A stretch of 23,514 nt of DNA from a virus, in IMG/VR virus record IMGVR_UViG_3300031566_000375, positions 1-23,514 of that record. One strand, 5' to 3'. The translations under genes and the position numbers were made by a program. Of this stretch, positions 6,913 to 19,796 are shown one piece after another; position 1 is the first letter of the stretch; each line of letters opens with the position of its first letter. The notes beneath the pieces are model-generated. The model worked only from the letters and a program-made list of their open reading frames with translations. It had not been told where the DNA came from and did no database searches.

Positions 6913-7970
6913 TTTACCGTGTCACTAACCTGAACGATAGTGGCGCGGGCAGTCTCCGAGCAGCACTGGAAGCGAGCGGATTTCGAGTAGTGGTATTCGA
7001 TGTGGCGGGGACAGTTGAGCTGGTGTCCCAAATCATGATCCGCAATCCGAACATCGAAGTACGTGGGCAGACTGCACCTGGTGGCGGGATCTGCGTGAAG
7101 GGCGGCTACATTGCGATTGAGGCGGCAGATGTGACGTTGCGGTACCTGCGACTGAGGCCAGGAGCCACGGATGAGGTGGATGCACTACAGATCAACGCCC
7201 CGGCGCGGCGCGTGTTGATCGATCACTGCAGCCTGTCGTGGGCCGTGGACGAAAACCTGGATTTGTACGGCAATATCCACGACATAGTGATCCGCCACTG
7301 CATTATCAGCGAGGGATTGAACGATGCTGGACACAGCAAGGGGCCGCACAGCATGGGTGCCCTAGTGGGCGGCGGCGCGGATCGCGTGTTGTTCGAGCGC
7401 TGCCTGTTTGGCCACAACAACCAGCGCAACCCGCTGGTGGCCTCTGGGCGGGCTGACGTGGTGAACTGCGTGATGTACGGCGAGGGCATCCTGTTTCACT
7501 GTAGTGGCGATCCGCGTTGGCCAGATACCCGCGTCAATTTCATCGGCAACTATCAGGGATTCCCGGCAGCGGAAACAGACCGCCTCCAGAACTACATCTG
7601 GTGGTATGAGGACGGCGTGGTGCAGGTCTACGAGCACGACACGGAGATCGATGGATACGATGGGCCACCGCTGCGCTTGCTTGACGGTTATCCGGGCACA
7701 GTTGAAGACCACCTGGAGGATGTACCATTCCCTCCATTGTATGGTGGCGAACCACTGAGCGCGATGGATGCGTTGGCTGACGTTCTCGCCAATGCTGGGG
7801 CCACGCTGCCACAGCGGGATATGGTAGATGCGCGGATTGTGGCAGATGTGCAGAATGGGACGGGCGGCATCATCGACGATCCAGCAGACGTGGGCGGCTG
7901 GCCGGACTTGACGGTCTATTCACCTAATCAGACATGGGCACATAGGAGCAGGGCATGTACATCAGCCTGA
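6909..7970 (+). CDS. Pectate-lyase-like parallel beta-helix protein (own TTG start or frameshift product)
   Basis: A 353-residue domain, counted from TTG 6909, opens 'LIYRVTNLNDSGAGSLRAAL' and continues 'VVFDVAGTVEL', 'IEVRGQTAPGGGICVKG', 'VTLRYLRLRPG', 'VLIDHCSLSWAVDENLDLYG', 'IVIRHCIISEGLNDAGHSKG', 'GHNNQRNPLV'. This is the order of bacterial pectate lyase (PL1-like) proteins, including the DHCS-x-SW-x-x-DE segment and the Arg in 'QRNP'. The usual N-terminal AFPGAEGFG cap is absent; the LamG gene lies where it would be. There is no ATG before the domain and no good SD before the TTG, so translation by -1 frameshift from the LamG gene is attractive. It would cleave acidic polysaccharide or serve as a binding helix. 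It overlaps the connector gene by 16 bases. Confidence 0.8.
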   Translation: MIYRVTNLNDSGAGSLRAALEASGFRVVVFDVAGTVELVSQIMIRNPNIEVRGQTAPGGGICVKGGYIAIEAADVTLRYLRLRPGATDEVDALQINAPARRVLIDHCSLSWAVDENLDLYGNIHDIVIRHCIISEGLNDAGHSKGPHSMGALVGGGADRVLFERCLFGHNNQRNPLVASGRADVVNCVMYGEGILFHCSGDPRWPDTRVNFIGNYQGFPAAETDRLQNYIWWYEDGVVQVYEHDTEIDGYDGPPLRLLDGYPGTVEDHLEDVPFPPLYGGEPLSAMDALADVLANAGATLPQRDMVDARIVADVQNGTGGIIDDPADVGGWPDLTVYSPNQTWAHRSRACTSA

Positions 7971-9064
7971 GCGAACTTAGAGACTACCTGGACCTGGAGG
8001 ACACCGACACCTATACGCCGGCCTTCGGGGCCGACACGCTGACCCTGGCGAGCGTCCCGTTTCGCAACACGCTCAAGACGGGGACAGAGGTCACGGTGGC
8101 ATCGACGCTGGCCGACCCGCCTGCACCGCTGGTGGAGGGCACGGTCTACTATGTGATCCTGGGCGCTGACCAGGTGATCCAGCTTGCCGCCACCAGCGCA
8201 CTCGCTGCCGTGCCCACGCCTATCGTCCTGACCGACGACGGGACGGGCACGCACACCATCACCCGGGAGGACGCGGACACGGCGCTGCTCACCGACGCCA
8301 TCAGCGCAGCACAGACCTATATCGAGTCGCAGACCAACCGCACCTTTGAGGCAGCGGAGGACATCCGCTACTACGGGCGCGACGCGCTGAGCGACGAGGA
8401 CCGCCGCCTGCTGCTGGTGGATGGCGATCTGGTGACGGGGAACACGCTGACCAACGGCGACTTTCAGGCGGGCACAACCTATGTGCCGGCATTTGCTGCC
8501 GATAGGCTGACGCTGGCCAGCACTGCGGTCTGGGATGCGCTGATAGCGGCCACGCCGCTGACGGTGACCTCGACCACCCACGACCCGCCCGCGCCGTTGG
8601 TGGAGGGGACGGTGTACTATGCCATCCTGCTCGTTTCGCCGGGCATCCAAGTGGCTGCAACCGCTGCACTGGCCCTGGCAGGCACGGCGATCACCCTGAC
8701 CGACAACGGGACGGGCACGCACACGGTCGTGCCTGAAGGAACCCCGATCCCGAACACGGAATACTGGCTGCACCCGCGCAACCTGGGGCCGCCCTACTTC
8801 GGCATCCGGCTGAAGACGGACAGCACCTACTCGTGGACGTTTGACACCGACTGTTTCGTGAGCGTCAACGGCGATTGGGCCTACAGCGCGGCAGTGCCGG
8901 GGGATATCAAGGAGGCATGCAAAGTGCTGGCCGCGTTCGCTTATAGAAGGAAAGACAGTCAGGTGTTCGAGGTCACAGCGATCCCTGGTGCGGGCGTGAT
9001 CACGATCCCACAGGGCATACCGGCGGGCATAACCGACGTTCTGACATACTACAAGAGGCACTGA
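7955..9064 (+). CDS. Head-tail connector (gp6-like) with two inserted beta domains
   Basis: A 369-residue protein, ATG 7955 with AGGAG upstream. The connector core is split: residues 1-19 (MYISLSELRDYLDLED), 103-170 ('TALLTDAISAAQTYIESQTNRTF' helix pair and 'RYYGRD'), and 260-369 ('YWLHPRNLGPPYFGIRL', 'SWTFDTDC', 'PGDIKEACKVLAAFAYRRK', 'ITDVLTYYKR'). That pattern is the adaptor placed between portal and tail in siphophages. Residues 20-102 and 177-259 are two similar domains (both contain DPPAPLVEGTVYY, then I-Q-L/V-AAT, then LTD-x-GTGTHT). Without them the core is about 203 residues, a normal connector length. It ends TGATG into the tail terminator gene. Confidence 0.8.
   Translation: MYISLSELRDYLDLEDTDTYTPAFGADTLTLASVPFRNTLKTGTEVTVASTLADPPAPLVEGTVYYVILGADQVIQLAATSALAAVPTPIVLTDDGTGTHTITREDADTALLTDAISAAQTYIESQTNRTFEAAEDIRYYGRDALSDEDRRLLLVDGDLVTGNTLTNGDFQAGTTYVPAFAADRLTLASTAVWDALIAATPLTVTSTTHDPPAPLVEGTVYYAILLVSPGIQVAATAALALAGTAITLTDNGTGTHTVVPEGTPIPNTEYWLHPRNLGPPYFGIRLKTDSTYSWTFDTDCFVSVNGDWAYSAAVPGDIKEACKVLAAFAYRRKDSQVFEVTAIPGAGVITIPQGIPAGITDVLTYYKRH
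8012..8731 (+). repeat. Duplicated domain-coding repeat inside the connector gene
   Basis: Copy A spans about 8012-8260 and copy B about 8483-8731. The two encode similar 83-residue beta domains, and the DNA is also clearly related (for example the DPPAPLVEGTVYY segments at about 8114-8152 and 8581-8619). The 220-base spacer between them encodes connector core. The arrangement points to duplication of a mobile domain rather than a tandem repeat. Confidence 0.75.
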
Positions 9065-9468
9065 TGACCACCTACCGCAGCTTTGTGGATGCACTGGAGG
9101 CGCTGGTCATCACCGGCGTGGTGCGGCGCTACACGAGCGGACCGCCTGCAGGAGCACCCGGTGTGGGCGATACGCCCGCGCAGTACGTGCGCTATCCAGG
9201 CGGCGACGAGCGGGTGCTGGTATTCGGTGAGGGAGGCGGGTTTACCACGCTCCGTGCCGAGATGGTGCTCCTGGTCGAGCCGGTGGCGCAGAGCATGCAG
9301 GGCCGCAACTTCGACTTGACGGTGGATATGATGGACAACCTGGCGGCGGCGCTGCGCGGGGCTCCATGTACAATTGGGGGCAAGCTGAGCTGGTCGCTGC
9401 GCCAAATCATCGACACCGTGGCAGGCACTGACTACTGGGCCGTCTTGGCTTCGGTAGAGGGGCACTGA
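9064..9468 (+). CDS. Tail terminator / tail completion protein
   Basis: A 134-residue protein whose ATG 9064 overlaps the connector stop by one base. It starts with a helix 'TYRSFVDALEALVITGVVRR', continues with beta strands including 'TTLRAEMVLLVEPVAQSMQGRNFDLTVDMMDNLAAALRG', and ends 'LSWSLRQIIDTVAGTDYWAVLASVEGH'. Size, alpha-beta order and position after the connector match siphophage tail terminators (lambda gpU-like role), which cap the finished tail tube and join it to the head. The assignment is mostly positional and structural. The tail-tube gene would normally follow closely, but here about 3 kb of accessory genes intervene. Confidence 0.65.
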   Translation: MTTYRSFVDALEALVITGVVRRYTSGPPAGAPGVGDTPAQYVRYPGGDERVLVFGEGGGFTTLRAEMVLLVEPVAQSMQGRNFDLTVDMMDNLAAALRGAPCTIGGKLSWSLRQIIDTVAGTDYWAVLASVEGH

Positions 9469-9493
9469 TAACGCATCCCGAAAGGAGAGCGAA

Positions 9494-9673
9494 ATGAAGG
9501 ACAATGAAGGGTTCCGAGAATGGCCGTCTGATGCCTGTATGGGTTGCGGATGGCTACAGTGCAGCAATTGCACGATACCGGGTGGCGTATGTTGGAAGCG
9601 CCTTATCGCCGGGACATCAGTATCGGTGGCCGACCTTCTGGTCAAGCTCGGCATCATCCAGAGAATCGGATGA
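9494..9673 (+). CDS. 59-residue Cys-rich small protein
   Basis: ATG 9494 lies behind AAAGGAGAG of the first 29-bp leader and the frame closes at TGA 9671-9673. The protein carries Cys15-x2-Cys18-x4-Cys23-x2-Cys26 and Cys33 in 'ACMGCGWLQCSNCTI', a likely zinc-binding knuckle or small ribbon, followed by a helix-like C-terminus (VADLLVKLGIIQRIG). No family is recognised. It sits at the front of the accessory island, in a stretch less GC-rich than its neighbours. A role in DNA, RNA or protein binding is conceivable but not shown. Confidence 0.6.
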   Translation: MKDNEGFREWPSDACMGCGWLQCSNCTIPGGVCWKRLIAGTSVSVADLLVKLGIIQRIG

Positions 9674-9708
9674 GACTCCTTAACATCGGCGTAGAAGGCA
9701 ACGTATAA
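9670..9708 (+). pseudogene. Remnant of the methyltransferase gene start (12-codon mini-ORF)
   Basis: ATG 9670 overlaps the stop of the Cys-rich gene and encodes MRLLNIGVEGNV before a TAA. Bases 9673-9690 match 10069-10086 at 16 of 18 positions, where the intact methyltransferase encodes R-L-L-N-I-G. This looks like the original first codons of the methyltransferase gene, left behind when the second small gene and its leader were inserted. It could still act as a tiny coupling peptide. Confidence 0.6.
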
Positions 9709-9730
9709 CGCATCCCGAAAGGAGAGCGAA

Positions 9731-10078
9731 ATGGGAATGAGTAGGCGCAAGTTTATGGAGGGCACGCTGGGTGCTCTGGGTGGGCTTATTGCATCTGGTG
9801 GGACACTGGGTGCCGCATTGGCAAGTGACCGCCGCGAACAGAACATGATCGAGATATACGCCGCCGACAATCCATTCGTCACCCTATGGCTCAATGGAAA
9901 AGATATCTCCATAGATGCTACGGGCTGTCGTGTTTATTGTGAACCAGGTAAGGTGATATGGGGCTGGGCCGAGGTTGTTGTACGCAGTGACCAAGGCGGC
10001 ATCATCGCGGGACCAGATCACAAGCCCCTAGTGCGTCGGCGCTATGGATGGGTGCGGTGGGCACACCAAGACTACTAA
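9731..10078 (+). CDS. Small protein with Tat-like signal sequence
   Basis: A 115-residue protein starts at ATG 9731 (or 9737) behind the second 29-bp leader. The N-terminus reads MGMSRRKFMEGTLGALGG, continuing IASGGTLGAALA: a twin-arginine S-R-R-x-F motif, a weakly hydrophobic Gly/Ala/Leu core and a possible A-L-A-S cleavage near residue 32. The mature part (from about NMIEIYAADN) is beta-rich: 'PFVTLWLNGKDIS', 'CRVYCEPGKVIWGWAEVVVR'. The family is not recognised. If functional, the Tat system would export the folded protein, for example for surface exclusion. The 3' end overlaps the methyltransferase start by 31 bases. Confidence 0.65.
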   Translation: MGMSRRKFMEGTLGALGGLIASGGTLGAALASDRREQNMIEIYAADNPFVTLWLNGKDISIDATGCRVYCEPGKVIWGWAEVVVRSDQGGIIAGPDHKPLVRRRYGWVRWAHQDY

Positions 10079-10839
10079 ACATCGGCTCCGGCCCGGCGAG
10101 CCTCACCATCCCCGCCTACTACGAGGACTGGGACGCGGTGCGGCTGGACATCGAGCCGCGCAACGAGCCCGATCTGCTGATGGACGCAATGGACCTGGAC
10201 ACGCTGGAGGCGAGCCAGTTCGATGCGGCCTATGCGTCGCACCTGCTGGAACATATCTACCCGCAGGGCCTGGAGCGCTTCATGCGCGGTGTGCATCACG
10301 TCCTGGTGGCCGACGGCTTCGTGGACTTTCGCGTGCCCGACGCCCTGGCGGCGTGCAGGAGGGCGACAGAGGACGGCACCCTGGACGCACCCTGCTACAC
10401 CGTGGCGGTGGGGACGGTCACGGCCTGGGACATGCTCTATGGCTACTTGCACTATCAGCAGGTGATGGGGCCGGCGATGGCGCACCACAATGGTTTCAGC
10501 CAGCAGACGCTTACCGGGACGCTACAGGCGTTCGGCTTCGGGCGGGTGTACATCGCCCGCAACGAGTGGGAGATGGGCGCTATCGGCTGCAAGACGGACC
10601 TGGACGATGACATGAAAGAGAGGATTGGCCTTGACAGAGCAACGGGTGAGCATCGCCTTGTGCATTCCGACGATGGGGCCGCCAACGTGGAGCCTGTTCG
10701 ACAGCTTCGGCCTGTGGCAGAGCTACCACTACGCGACCCATCCCGACGTTCCGGTAACGGTCATTCGCCCGCCGCGCTCGCTGCCGGTGGACGTGGCACG
10801 CACCTACCTCGTGCAGCGGGCCTTGGAGGGCGACTGTAG
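10048..10839 (+). CDS. Class I SAM-dependent methyltransferase
   Basis: The 263-codon frame starts at ATG 10048 inside the previous gene. The core from residue 8 reads 'RLLNIGSGPASLTIP' (SAM-binding motif I), 'AVRLDIEPRNEPDLLMDAMD' (acidic residue after strand 2 and motif II), 'FDAAYASHLLEHI' (motif IV) and 'VLVADGFVDFRVPDAL', typical of Rossmann methyltransferases of the Methyltransf_11 type. The substrate is unknown. The real protein probably ended near residue 195 (DDDMKERIGL). From there to 10839 the frame runs 209 bases over the glycosyltransferase gene and reads Arg/Gly/Pro-rich shadow sequence, so the natural stop seems lost or the extension is tolerated. The start was apparently rebuilt after an insertion. 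Confidence 0.8.
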   Translation: MGAVGTPRLLNIGSGPASLTIPAYYEDWDAVRLDIEPRNEPDLLMDAMDLDTLEASQFDAAYASHLLEHIYPQGLERFMRGVHHVLVADGFVDFRVPDALAACRRATEDGTLDAPCYTVAVGTVTAWDMLYGYLHYQQVMGPAMAHHNGFSQQTLTGTLQAFGFGRVYIARNEWEMGAIGCKTDLDDDMKERIGLDRATGEHRLVHSDDGAANVEPVRQLRPVAELPLRDPSRRSGNGHSPAALAAGGRGTHLPRAAGLGGRL

Positions 10840-11392
10840 CCATGTGTGGTTCACCGACCAGGACGCGGCGTACACGCCGGACACGCTGGAGCGCCTGCTG
10901 GCCTGGGACGTGCCTATCGTCGGGGTGCTATGCATGATCCGCGCCTCGACATGGTGCATGCCGATGGCCTTCAAAGGCGAGAAGGAAGACGAGCCGGGGA
11001 AGTACCTCGTCCTGGTGGACGAGCCATATAACTACTTGCGCGAGCATGCCAACGTCGAGACGAACGACCCGCAGGCCATCAGCCCGATACCGGAGGGCAG
11101 CCTGTGGGACGTGGACATCACCGGGTGCCACTGCCTACTCATCAAGCGGGAAGTGCTTGAGGCGCTGGAGCCGCCGTGGTTTAGCGGCCTGCCGGGCCAG
11201 GAGGATATGTACTTTTGCCGCAAGGCGTCGGCGGCGGGCTTCCCGATTTACGTGGATTTCAGCACCATCGCCGGCCACGCCACAGGCGAGCGCATCATCG
11301 GCGTGTACGACTTTATGGCACACTACATTTTCCAGTCCTTGCTGGAGGGAATAGATGTCGGAATCGCAAACCGAACCACAGAAGATGCGTAA
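10631..11392 (+). CDS. GT-A-type glycosyltransferase
   Basis: The likely start is TTG 10631, seven bases after GAGAGG; TTG 10625 and GTG 10646 are alternatives. The 253-residue protein has 'RVSIALCIPTMGPPTW' (GT-A first strand), 'HVWFTDQDAAYTPDTLERLL' (a D-x-D-like metal/nucleotide-sugar site), 'ITGCHCLLIKREVLEAL', 'GLPGQEDMYFCRKASAAGF' (acceptor-side ED motif) and 'STIAGHAT'. It would transfer a sugar from a nucleotide-sugar donor in the cytoplasm; the acceptor, perhaps a virion protein or phage DNA, is unknown. It overlaps the methyltransferase frame upstream and the next gene by 38 bases, suggesting one accessory cassette. Confidence 0.82.
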   Translation: MTEQRVSIALCIPTMGPPTWSLFDSFGLWQSYHYATHPDVPVTVIRPPRSLPVDVARTYLVQRALEGDCSHVWFTDQDAAYTPDTLERLLAWDVPIVGVLCMIRASTWCMPMAFKGEKEDEPGKYLVLVDEPYNYLREHANVETNDPQAISPIPEGSLWDVDITGCHCLLIKREVLEALEPPWFSGLPGQEDMYFCRKASAAGFPIYVDFSTIAGHATGERIIGVYDFMAHYIFQSLLEGIDVGIANRTTEDA

Positions 11393-11612
11393 GAGCTGCA
11401 CCTATCGGATCAACGGCGCCCTGTGCATTCGCGCCTCGGGAGCCTGGATACCGGCGGGCGTCATCGCCGACCTATCCGACTGCGAGGACGCGTTCATCAC
11501 CTGGGCGCTCAAGGGCGGGTTGATCGAGACGGCGGACCCCACGGATGAGGAGCCGCTGTTCAATCAAGCTGTGGGCGCGGTCAAACGCAAACCGTGCCCG
11601 TGTGGGAACTGA
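11355..11612 (+). CDS. Small protein of unknown function, glycosyltransferase-linked
   Basis: An 85-residue protein, ATG 11355 behind GGAGGGA within the end of the glycosyltransferase gene. The middle has 'CTYRINGALCIRASGAWIP' and 'DAFITWALKGGLIE', suggesting a small alpha-beta domain, and the C-terminus is Lys/Cys-rich (KRKPCPCGN) with a Cys-Pro-Cys-Gly that could bind metal. No family recognised. Its stop TGA (11610-11612) abuts the stop of the converging homing endonuclease gene (TGATCA). It may be a late-operon protein whose downstream neighbour was originally the tail-tube gene. Confidence 0.6.
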   Translation: MSESQTEPQKMRKSCTYRINGALCIRASGAWIPAGVIADLSDCEDAFITWALKGGLIETADPTDEEPLFNQAVGAVKRKPCPCGN

Positions 11613-12395
11613 TCACCAATCGTCCGCAATAGTCTTCTTGCGGGGCAAGTATACGGAGCAGTTTTGATAAAGACATCGGGCAACATTGCGAGAGGTTCTG
11701 GTGTCACACCACAGACGGAATATACCAGGCCCGCGCCCTATAGAGACAGCCGCACTGGGCCTAAGGGCAAGGACAAAAGAGCGGAATTGCATGAGCAGGG
11801 GCTCTGTTCCGCAAAGCCTCAGGGAGGGATATTTTCCCTTGGCCATGAACAGACATCCGTCTCCGTCTACGAGGCCTCGCCAGAAGTGGCGATTAGCGTC
11901 CAGTTGGCGCACATATCCGGATGCGGATTTACTAGCGGTTATTCCAAACTGTGAAAGCGCGGAGACAAGATGCTTGGAGCGAACCTGATAGCGAGCCTTC
12001 GGCTTGGTACTGAATGAATCAGTTCTAGAACAGCTCGTTATCTTATGGCCCGACTTGAGGAATACACGGAATCGTTCAAGGTGTGCTTGGTCTTCCGACG
12101 AAAGTTCCACAGAAATGCATGGAGAATGGCCATCTTGATAGCTAATGCAACCATCGGCCATAAGAAATCCGGCCCAGTAAGCGGACTCTTCAGTGATGTT
12201 GTCAAAGACTGACTCATCGAGCGGCATTGTGCGAGCTGGTCCCTGCGGACGCCTGGGAATATCGCGGCGTTTGAGCAGGCCCAATATGGCCTTGTGCGTA
12301 ACACCATAACGGGCAGCCAAAATGCCGGATGAATCACCTTGGCGGTATTCGGAAATCATCTGTTGTACCTGTTCGCGTGTAAGATGCTTGGCCAT
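11613..12395 (-). CDS. LAGLIDADG homing endonuclease with N-terminal HTH
   Basis: A 260-residue minus-strand gene, ATG at 12395 with AGGGAG upstream, transcribed against the late operon. Residues 5-48 form a helix-turn-helix (LTREQVQQMISEYRQGD, then AARYGVTHKAILGLLKRR). Residues 74-84 (YWAGFLMADGC) and 171-182 (FWRGLVDGDGCL) are two LAGLIDADG-type motifs, each with the acidic Asp that binds metal, so the enzyme should be a monomeric double-motif nuclease cutting a long DNA site. It is freestanding, with no intron or intein parts seen. The gene has clearly lower GC (about 45% in a sample at 12061-12120) than the tail gene beside it (about 67% at 12661-12720), as expected for an invader. It separates the small gene at 11355 from the tail-tube gene. 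Confidence 0.9.
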   Translation of the reverse strand: MAKHLTREQVQQMISEYRQGDSSGILAARYGVTHKAILGLLKRRDIPRRPQGPARTMPLDESVFDNITEESAYWAGFLMADGCISYQDGHSPCISVELSSEDQAHLERFRVFLKSGHKITSCSRTDSFSTKPKARYQVRSKHLVSALSQFGITASKSASGYVRQLDANRHFWRGLVDGDGCLFMAKGKYPSLRLCGTEPLLMQFRSFVLALRPSAAVSIGRGPGIFRLWCDTRTSRNVARCLYQNCSVYLPRKKTIADDW

Positions 12396-12427
12396 GTGTG
12401 TTCTCCCTATGCTCTACCAATAGGGAC

Positions 12428-12456
12428 ATTATAAGCCAAAGTAGGTGTGTTGTCAA
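12428..12456 (-). promoter_or_regulatory. Consensus sigma-70 promoter for the homing endonuclease gene
   Basis: On the minus strand TTGACA (12456-12451) and TATAAT (12433-12428) are separated by exactly 17 bases, a perfect match to the housekeeping consensus. The start ATG is 33 bases downstream of the -10 end, with AGGGAG in between. It fires leftward, antisense to the late genes. Confidence 0.85.
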
Positions 12457-12469
12457 CTTGAGTTGACAA
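12450..12469. promoter_or_regulatory. 20-bp palindromic operator overlapping the -35 box
   Basis: TTGTCAACT-TG-AGTTGACAA is a perfect 9+9 bp inverted repeat that covers the leftward -35 box. A dimeric repressor bound here would block the promoter; the HTH of the endonuclease or a host repressor are candidates. In the rightward late mRNA the same bases form an 8-bp hairpin just before the AAAGGAG site of the tail-tube gene, so it may also affect that gene's translation. Confidence 0.65.
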
Positions 12470-12482
12470 AGGAGTAAGCGAA

Positions 12483-12959
12483 GTGGCTCTACCGACCGGA
12501 ATTTTGTCAAGCTGCACGATGTGTGTGGAACTCAGCACAGATGGCACGACCTGGACGGACTTCAGCGACTACCTGACCGTCCTCGAGCCGACGCCCGTCA
12601 CCCGCGATAGTGGGCAGACGGCAGTGTTCGGCGAGGAAGACATGGCGATGGGCGTCGGGCGGAAGAACCCCATCGAGGTCACGATCCGGGGCGTCTACGT
12701 GGACGCGACGGCGACCACCAACCCGTTTCGCTATGTGTGGGCGCAGTGGACGACTGTCTGCGGCGGCGCGCTGGCGGTACGTTGGGCGCCTGCCGGGTGT
12801 ACTACGACCAATCAGGTGTTCAGCACGGCGACGGCGACGGGTCACTACTCACGGCTGATCAGCCAGACGCCGCCGGCCAGTAACGCCGACACCGTGGACC
12901 CGATCATGTGGGAGGCGATCGTCAAGTCGCCCAGCCTGTATCTCGCCACATACGCATAG
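12483..12959 (+). CDS. Major tail protein (tail tube)
   Basis: A 158-residue protein, GTG 12483 after AAAGGAG (12468-12474). It has the tail-tube pattern: 'CTMCVELSTDGTTWTDFSDY', 'VLEPTPVTRDSGQTAVFG', 'GVGRKNPIEVTIRGVYVD', 'NPFRYVWAQW', 'LAVRWAPAG', 'WEAIVKSPSLYLATYA'. These beta strands form the ring subunit that stacks into the tail tube around the tape measure. Length is normal. It is followed directly by the G/GT chaperones and tape measure, the standard siphophage order, which supports the call. The homing endonuclease gene and its promoter lie immediately upstream. Confidence 0.85.
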   Translation: MALPTGILSSCTMCVELSTDGTTWTDFSDYLTVLEPTPVTRDSGQTAVFGEEDMAMGVGRKNPIEVTIRGVYVDATATTNPFRYVWAQWTTVCGGALAVRWAPAGCTTTNQVFSTATATGHYSRLISQTPPASNADTVDPIMWEAIVKSPSLYLATYA

Positions 12960-17812: not shown

Positions 17813-18879
17813 TGCATAACCTGCTACTCTACGATCGCTTGGCAATCAGCACCACCAACTTCCGCCAGAACATCACGCGGCTGGCCCAGGACTGGCACCG
17901 CAGCATCAAGGCCGTGGGTGGCTACTGGCTCGGTGATTTCAGCATTGGGCAGGACCAACTCACGCGCGGCGAGATCGTGGACCTTTACAACAATGCTGTC
18001 GGCTGGCGCGTGGTTGAGATGTCCTATGGCTTCGTCACTTGGGAGGGCAGAATATCGCAGCTCAAGTTGACTCTGGATGGCGCCGAGTATACGCGCTCAC
18101 TGGACCCCGAGCATTGGCATAACAAGGTCAAGGTGCGCTACCCGCCGACGATAACGGCCTGGACTGAGAACACCGACAGCTCTGATCTCTATGGCGAGAG
18201 CTGCTATGTGGATTCCGTGGGCGGTGCCTACAACAGCACGGCGGCGATAGCCCGGCGGGATCGGCGGCTGGCGGAGAACGCATATCCGCGCAGTAGGGCC
18301 ACAGGCGGACTGGCAAGCGCAAAAGAGGCAAAGGGCGTCCGGCTTGACGTGTTGTGTGCCGGGTATGCCTTTACGATCAATCAGCGCTACCGCCTGACAG
18401 ATACGGCACCGGCGAACCTGAGCACGCAGGTCGGCGTCTTGGTGGGAGAATCGGAGTTTGTCACGGCGGGCACGATTGCCACCAACCCGCTGCAGGTGCC
18501 CATCTCCACCGAGGGCGTCCCGACGTGCCTATGGGATTTGATCGAAGAACTCATTGGCATGGGCGATGACACCGGCGCGGAATATGTGGGCGGGGTGTAT
18601 GCTGGGCGCGTGTTCAACTGTGCAGCGGCGGCGACAACCGTCACTTACTACTGGCGCAATGGCGTGCTGTACGATGTGGCGGGCAACCCGAAGCTGCCAA
18701 CACACATCCAGCCCAACACCATCGTCGAGTTGGTCAAGGCACCGCGATCGCAGGCCGTTCCCGGCGGGGGCGTGAAAGAGAAGCCGAACCGGGTGTATAT
18801 CGAACAGGTAGAGTTTATTGCGCCAGACGCCTACCGACTGACGCCACGCTATGGCCCCGTGCTGGAGGGAAGAGCGTAG
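17812..18879 (+). CDS. Tail hub / minor tail protein (baseplate-type)
   Basis: A 355-residue protein; ATG 17812 overlaps the upstream TGA by one base (a GTG at 17809 is possible). It has beta-rich segments such as 'GGYWLGDFSIGQDQLTRGEI', 'VVEMSYGFVTWEGRISQLKL' and 'AGYAFTINQRYRLTDTAPAN', the last resembling the repeated layers of siphophage tail-hub and tail-associated proteins. No lysozyme or peptidase motif is seen. Position between the Dit-like protein and the fibre supports a role as central hub that carries the fibre. Its TAG overlaps the next GTG by one base. Family call moderate. Confidence 0.65.
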   Translation: MHNLLLYDRLAISTTNFRQNITRLAQDWHRSIKAVGGYWLGDFSIGQDQLTRGEIVDLYNNAVGWRVVEMSYGFVTWEGRISQLKLTLDGAEYTRSLDPEHWHNKVKVRYPPTITAWTENTDSSDLYGESCYVDSVGGAYNSTAAIARRDRRLAENAYPRSRATGGLASAKEAKGVRLDVLCAGYAFTINQRYRLTDTAPANLSTQVGVLVGESEFVTAGTIATNPLQVPISTEGVPTCLWDLIEELIGMGDDTGAEYVGGVYAGRVFNCAAAATTVTYYWRNGVLYDVAGNPKLPTHIQPNTIVELVKAPRSQAVPGGGVKEKPNRVYIEQVEFIAPDAYRLTPRYGPVLEGRA

Positions 18880-19796
18880 TGGATAGGCGGCAGTTCCTCA
18901 GAGGAGCACTGCTCGCACTAATAGGAGGCAGAATGACCGAAAGACGATTCTTGGGGCGACAGGAGATAACAGCAGATGCAAGACGCCTGCAAGCCATGTT
19001 CGGCACACTATACGCTGCCGGCGGGCTTGTGAAGCTGGACGCAAACGGGATTGAGATCATTGCGGGCACCACGTTTGCTAATTCGCGTTCGTACAAGTTC
19101 GTGGACGCGAGCGGTGATATAGTGGCGCGTCTCGGGGCCGTCCACGATGACACCGTGAGCGACTATCGAAGCGTGGACATGCGAACGCTGCCCCATGCAG
19201 GGCTCGCCTCAGTTGCCTGGGTAGTGGCCGACGCCCCGACCGGAGAGATTGCGCAGACAAATATTGAGGCCAAGCTGAACTCTGCCTACGCGCGTAGTGC
19301 CACGATGCTGTGTGACGTGTCGGCTGCGTCATCCGTTCAGTGGGCCATCGATGATGTGTGGCGGGCGACAATAGGTGCCACGGAGATCAGCGCTGGGCTC
19401 CGAGGATCGGCAACGGCTGGTAATGATGTACGGCTACAAGCCGACTGGGAAGTGACCTATGACACGTCTATCCGGGCTGCCAAGACGGACATCGCACCCT
19501 GGCAAGCTGACCGAGCGAAGTTTATGGAGCTCAAGCCGTCTTCGTACAAGTCGGTCACGAAACCGGATGGGCCGCCGATCGTCGGCCTGATCGCTGAAGA
19601 TGTCGAGAAGACGATGCCGCACCTGGCCAACTATCTCGCCCAAAGGGGGCCGGATGGCAAGCCCGACATAGGCGATCTAAGGCTGTCAGGCTGGGACGAT
19701 AAGCAGATGATGGCCACCATGATCTCGGTCATCCAACAGCAGCAAAAGGATATCGAGGCGCTGAAGGCCCGGGTGGCGGCGCTGGAGGCCAAGTGA
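18879..19796 (+). CDS. Tail fibre with C-terminal S74 intramolecular chaperone domain; Tat-like N-terminus
   Basis: GTG 18879 has GGAGGG nine bases upstream (18864-18869) and TAGTG coupling, giving 305 residues. ATG 18933 with a perfect AGGAGG (18923-18928) gives 287 and is a real alternative. Middle residues (50-190) are beta-rich repeats of phage-fibre type ('GLVKLDANGIEIIAGTTFAN'). Residues about 196-305 form an S74 chaperone: 'DTSIRAAKTDIAPWQADRAK', 'FMELKPSSYKSV', 'PPIVGLIAEDVEKTMPHL', ending in a heptad helix (QQQQKDIEALKARVAALEAK). Ser197 and Lys202 keep the Ser-x4-Lys spacing of the endosialidase self-cleavage dyad. The domain trimerises the fibre and cuts itself off. The long form opens MDRRQFLRGALLALIGG, a twin-arginine-like sequence. 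Confidence 0.85.
   Translation: MDRRQFLRGALLALIGGRMTERRFLGRQEITADARRLQAMFGTLYAAGGLVKLDANGIEIIAGTTFANSRSYKFVDASGDIVARLGAVHDDTVSDYRSVDMRTLPHAGLASVAWVVADAPTGEIAQTNIEAKLNSAYARSATMLCDVSAASSVQWAIDDVWRATIGATEISAGLRGSATAGNDVRLQADWEVTYDTSIRAAKTDIAPWQADRAKFMELKPSSYKSVTKPDGPPIVGLIAEDVEKTMPHLANYLAQRGPDGKPDIGDLRLSGWDDKQMMATMISVIQQQQKDIEALKARVAALEAK

Follow-up and report, generated by a model that had tools for sequence, protein, structure and literature searches.

The DNA analysed here (hereafter the window) is a 23.5-kb IMG/VR virus record of a tailed phage. Its late genes run in the order capsid (Phage_capsid 2.6e-39), head-tail adaptor-like gene, a 134-aa gene (the upstream gene), a slot holding two small genes (cargos), methyltransferase (MT), glycosyltransferase-like gene and tail genes (Table 1). 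The upstream gene gave no Pfam or PHROG match, and the glycosyltransferase-like gene stands beside methyltransferase genes in related phages too. From left to right the slot reads SVEGH-TGA (the end of the upstream gene), leader, cargo 1, an ATGA overlap, a fusion of MRLLNIG with VEGNV-TAA, a second leader, cargo 2 and the methyltransferase.

Table 1. Features of the slot and of its neighbouring genes (positions in the window)
Feature	Position	Strand	Description or basis
Head-tail adaptor-like gene	7955-9064		Precedes the upstream gene; PHROG head-tail adaptor match
Upstream gene, 134 aa	9064-9468	+	ORF; left border of the slot, ends SVEGH-TGA; relatives 65-87% identical
Leader copy 1	9468-9496	+	TAA, possible GAAA-loop hairpin, SD AAGGAG, ATG
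Cargo 1, 59 aa	9494-9673	+	ORF; cysteine-rich; stop overlaps remnant start (ATGA)
MT-start remnant MRLLNIG	9670-9690	+	16/18 to 10069-10086
Upstream-gene-end remnant VEGNV-TAA	9691-9708	+	Recombination joint; sequence comparison
Leader copy 2	9705-9733	+	Same letters as copy 1
Cargo 2, 115 aa	9731-10078	+	ORF; twin-arginine-like N-terminus SRRKFM
SAM methyltransferase core, intact	10048-10650	+	Pfam Methyltransf_23 1.1e-7; RLLNIG from 10069
Glycosyltransferase-like gene, late operon	10625-11392	+	Pfam Glyco_tranf_2_3 5e-5 (below cut-off); phrog_1574

The initial annotation of this DNA had placed two unrelated small genes behind identical 29-bp leaders, which we could confirm: ATAACGCATCCCGAAAGGAGAGCGAAATG is present in two exact copies, each of which precedes one small gene (59 and 115 codons, unrelated to each other). 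The leader lies between cistrons and is composed of a stop codon, a Shine-Dalgarno (SD) site and a start codon, the TAA of the second copy being the stop codon of the fused remnant. A search of the window for the 23-base leader core with up to three mismatches returned these 2 sites only (mean of 0.00 in 100 shuffles), and the chance expectation for a doubled leader is about zero. An Rfam search gave no match.

The copy of the methyltransferase start that had been reported behind the first gene was likewise borne out. The sequence 3' of cargo 1, ATGAGACTCCTTAACATCGGC, shares 16/18 bases with the intact methyltransferase start at 10069 (AGACTCCTTAACATCGGC, positions 9673-9690, versus AGACTACTAAACATCGGC, positions 10069-10086), and no third + strand site in the window matches at 14/18 or more. 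The remnant shares 18/21 bases with the methyltransferase start of the related contig L004 (GTGAGACTGCTCAACATCGGC). The description of the unit as leader, gene and methyltransferase start held as far as these parts are concerned, but it had overlooked the end of the upstream gene. The MRLLNIG remnant is joined to VEGNV-stop (fusion sequence MRLLNIGVEGNV), which is encoded by GTAGAAGGCAACGTATAA between this remnant and leader copy 2. The VEGNV-stop remnant agrees at 14/18 positions with the upstream-gene end of contig L021 (GTAGAAGGGCACTGATAA), at 13/18 with that of the window itself (GTAGAGGGGCACTGATAA) and at 12/18 with that of L004 (GTGGAAGGAAATGGGTAG), which ends SVEGNG-stop. Among the 537 in-frame stops of the window, VEG occurs in the last five codons only at the upstream-gene end and at the remnant. 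Since the remnant is a methyltransferase start fused to an upstream-gene tail, the repeated unit includes the upstream-gene end; as read from the letters, this unit is upstream-gene end, leader, cargo and methyltransferase start, arranged head to tail.

The homology available at the joint (ATCGGC/GTAGAA) amounts to 2-6 bp at most (the methyltransferase has ATCGGC, upstream genes of relatives have AGCGT or CATCGGTAGA), and the joint was therefore probably formed by illegitimate recombination, the long homology being provided by the leader. The earlier proposal of a duplication or recombination at short homologies is corrected in that the joint has to be placed between methyltransferase start and upstream-gene end, as in an unequal head-to-tail exchange.

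The cargo genes differ from their surroundings in base composition. The GC content is 0.55 for cargo 1 (0.65 in neighbouring genes) and 0.555 for cargo 2, and all cargos of the window and its relatives are GC-poorer than adjacent genes (0.48-0.57 versus 0.61-0.66). No relatives of cargo 1 were found in Pfam, PHROG and phage searches; for cargo 2 the same searches yielded none except in window-identical contigs, and its predicted structure (mean pLDDT 38) was unusable. None of the cargos matched a recombinase. The intact methyltransferase has lost its canonical start codon to the junction with cargo 2 (10048-10078); it must begin within cargo 2, at ATG 10048 or GTG 10057, and the stop of cargo 2 is formed by methyltransferase codons.

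Scanning IMG/VR for the exact leader retrieved four contigs (two window-identical ones and two others), and a further two came from scans that used the upstream protein and a relaxed leader pattern. Besides the window, four lineages were thereby seen to have the leader in this operon; three of them carry other small genes in the slot, as had been predicted. In L004 the order is upstream gene, MT1, leader, a 78-aa cargo and an MRLLNIG-type methyltransferase (GTGA overlap); in L006, upstream gene, leader, a 68-aa cargo and an MRP-type methyltransferase (ATGA overlap); and in L020, upstream gene, leader, a 74-aa cargo, a short spacer and an MRP-type methyltransferase. The stop of the cargo overlaps the methyltransferase start in three cases in all (ATGA/GTGA). 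A cargo-free form had also been anticipated and exists in L021, except that here the leader directly precedes a methyltransferase of the MRP type (MRPLIRQF) and not MRLLNIG. The L004 cargo is unrelated to those of the window, the methyltransferase behind it is the same and the upstream protein is 65% identical; in this contig the leader lies between MT1 and MT2 and hence is not bound to the upstream gene. Over 43 residues, identity between the 68-aa and 74-aa cargos is 44%, and no other cargo found a relative in the searches made. Weak family matches of the relatives' cargos (e.g. SLD5_C 0.0033 in L004, below the cut-off) were disbelieved, and a phage carrying either window cargo alone, as a parent would, was not found. 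The idea of a cassette-like loading of genes is supported in that the cargo varies behind the leader; no dedicated loading machinery is evident.

The leader is identical at 26/26 positions in all five lineages, in which third codon positions of the upstream gene are 69-86% identical. As a control, the 30 bases preceding other orthologous genes were compared: these mostly share about 11-26/30 (29/30 in one pair), and no other gene start is conserved at the 29/30 level across all relatives. Each relative's record holds one leader and each window-identical contig (G005 and G006) holds two, with no further copies there, and none was found in the 84,980 prokaryotic genomes scanned; the leader thus does not behave as an ordinary ribosome-binding module, the case that would have spoken against the initial annotation. 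A wide spread among viruses was rejected as well, as the relaxed patterns add only matches with unrelated flanks (L007-L016, L026).

Between L006 and L020, the upstream genes show 33 differences in the first 243 positions and then none through the leader; the identical stretch, about 190 bp long, stops at the leader, beyond which identity falls to about 50% in the cargos and returns to mostly 75-100% in MT1. To judge from these alignments, the pattern may be the mark of an exchange ending at or near the leader. In L020, a candidate for a second, decayed leader ahead of MT1 (P 0.08) was not accepted. In a spring-water phage with a P22-like coat (L048, MW202573.1), a related methyltransferase (31%) starts at the end of a 78-aa ORF, with an A197-like transferase behind it; this phage has no leader.

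We consider it likely that the leader is a conserved stop-SD-start boundary behind which cargo is exchanged, and that an unequal exchange between two relatives gave rise to the arrangement in the window. A small set of uncultured tailed phages would then have, in the late (structural) operon, a slot of variable gene content, bordered on the left by the end of a head-tail gene with the invariant leader and on the right by the methyltransferase start. By closing the upstream frame and opening a new one, the leader would allow immediate expression, from the late transcript, of a gene joined behind it, and a cargo stop that usually overlaps the methyltransferase start (ATGA or GTGA) would keep the coupling. 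A leader common to two phages would permit a crossover at this point, by homologous recombination or by single-strand annealing (for which an Erf-type protein might be used), and so swap the gene behind it. In the unequal exchange, codons 1-7 of one parent's methyltransferase would have been joined to the last upstream-gene codons of the other parent, and the outcome would be the two tandem units with different cargo which are seen in the sequence. The comparison comprises five lineages and is unrooted as to its direction (gain or loss of cargo).

An assembly artefact, conceivable for a metagenomic contig with a direct repeat, is extremely improbable, because two other IMG/VR contigs are 100% identical to the window over 10-11 kb, doubled unit included, and the two units differ in cargo and flanks. 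Alternatively, the unit might have been duplicated in tandem within one genome, one cargo being replaced later through the flanks. We regard this as unlikely: the head-to-tail joint is as expected and the leader copies are identical, yet the flanks have diverged (13/18 in the upstream tail and 16/18 in the methyltransferase start) though the leader has not, the copy-2 tail (VEGN) is nearer to that of L004 than to the window's own VEGH, and the cargos have nothing in common. It also seems very unlikely that leader and cargo form a mobile unit which inserts as such. That they follow the upstream gene in some phages but lie between MT1 and MT2 in L004 might suggest this; however, a rearrangement of MT1/MT2 through the leader accounts for L004 equally, each relative's record has a single copy with a different cargo, and the slot is without an integrase or transposase.

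The identity of the leader between differing flanks could also result from selection on the leader alone. It would then be kept solely for the control of translation by a hairpin that holds the SD, and cargo turnover would be ordinary gain and loss bypassing the leader. Taken alone, the leader can form a GAAA-tetraloop hairpin in which the SD is paired (-7.1 kcal/mol, z -3.6), and in L021 it also serves as the ribosome-binding site of MT1. With more of the surrounding window sequence included, however, the fold does not stand out (z -0.45 and +0.94), and the hairpin was rejected as an exceptional feature, since the folds of several other starts in the window are equal or better. The leader letters are invariant among lineages, and the identity tract of L006 and L020 stops at the leader. 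We therefore find this explanation doubtful. To see in the leader a dedicated docking module, with a hairpin kept both for translation and for annealing-based capture of cargo, appears quite improbable to us; if it were so, the structural operon would contain a standing accessory slot for one gene, extendable by tandem units.

Exchange at a conserved boundary, the reading that we favour, belongs to a known type of mechanism; anatomically, the locus is a modest variant in which a translational leader at a single locus is combined with changing cargo and a tandem unit. That short conserved boundary sequences underlie phage mosaicism is a proposal of long standing, e.g. for lambdoid phages (PMC3029335). 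Like the window leader, they are short, sit at gene junctions, are shared by phages that otherwise differ and are flanked by genes that have been exchanged; they are usable by general recombination, as the leader may be (PMC3029335). The leader is conserved beyond its flanks in divergent phages and has genes without mutual homology on one side of its junction; unlike the lambdoid boundaries, it is a translational stop-SD-start at one locus, and its unit is doubled. A close precedent is gene 68 of mycobacteriophage Island3 (compared with Brujita), an extra small ORFan whose borders are short copies (about 50-60 bp) of part of a neighbouring gene and which is explained by recombination between these copies (PMC3029335). 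The Island3 repeat is the 3' end of a gene, whereas that of the window comprises a gene end, a leader with ribosome-binding site and the start of the next gene, and other cargos occur in relatives of the window.

The SAS/ESAS of Cluster K mycobacteriophages are also conserved, contain an SD, stand before the starts of different genes, are rare or absent in hosts and, like the leader, may contain an upstream stop codon (PMC3203893). The SAS (GGGATAGGAGCCC) occurs many times per genome, in the non-structural half, in contrast to the one or two leader copies in the structural operon, and on these copy numbers a genome-wide repeat of this kind was rejected. The leader has neither the SAS sequence nor dispersed copies before non-structural genes; the only window site with one mismatch to SAS (21285) lies inside a gene, and shuffles average 0.55.

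The PeSL cassettes described by Arbiol et al. in 2010 reportedly combine an early promoter with a terminator stem-loop; a sigma-70 consensus scan of 8800-12600 (+ strand) found no promoter-like or terminator-like site, the leader included. As far as they are presented where cited (Arbiol et al. 2010, in PMC4503421 and PMC3950731), these cassettes of T4-like phages are short regulatory sequences at gene borders, proposed to act in modular shuffling, and in these respects the leader is similar. The cargos resemble morons in their differing base composition; unlike morons, those of the window showed no promoter or terminator of their own in the same scan. Leader plus cargo shows neither the recombinase functions nor the several genomic places of an autonomous mobile element.

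The locus may be seen as a natural record of how small genes are added without breaking late-operon expression: the border is the same throughout, the cargo has been swapped, one relative has none, and the joint of the doubled unit can still be read. Recombination at short boundaries becomes testable here, at a single defined site of 26 bp.

An Erf-type single-strand annealing protein (ERF 2.8e-25) is encoded on a window-identical contig and also in G006. Rad52-like phage recombinases, Erf included, work on short or diverged homology, and in lambda assays they recombined identical or diverged sequences at rates above those of the RecA pathway (PMC3945230). The region that contains the Erf-type gene (L053, G005 24000-43999) is the replication half of the same phage as the window, and it also encodes an HNH endonuclease, a DnaB-like helicase, a DUF5131 protein, portal and terminase.

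Several other features of the window were noted. A LAGLIDADG homing endonuclease gene (11613-12395, - strand; LAGLIDADG_3 1.9e-8, phrog_4645 8e-34) lies between two late genes, against the direction of the operon, with a perfect TTGACA-17-TATAAT promoter ahead of it (12428-12456, - strand). It is present in the window-identical contigs and absent from the records of the four other relatives; in L021 the genes flanking its site adjoin each other. Such an endonuclease could stimulate exchange nearby. Twin-arginine-like protein starts occur at 9731-9820 (SRRKFMEGTLGALGG) and 18879-18930 (DRRQFLRGALLALIGG); the latter belongs to a tail-fibre-like protein and is unusual for a virion protein. Finally, the head-tail adaptor-like gene contains an internal repeat of about 150 bp (8113-8262 and 8561-8724, 76% identical), which points to a duplicated domain.
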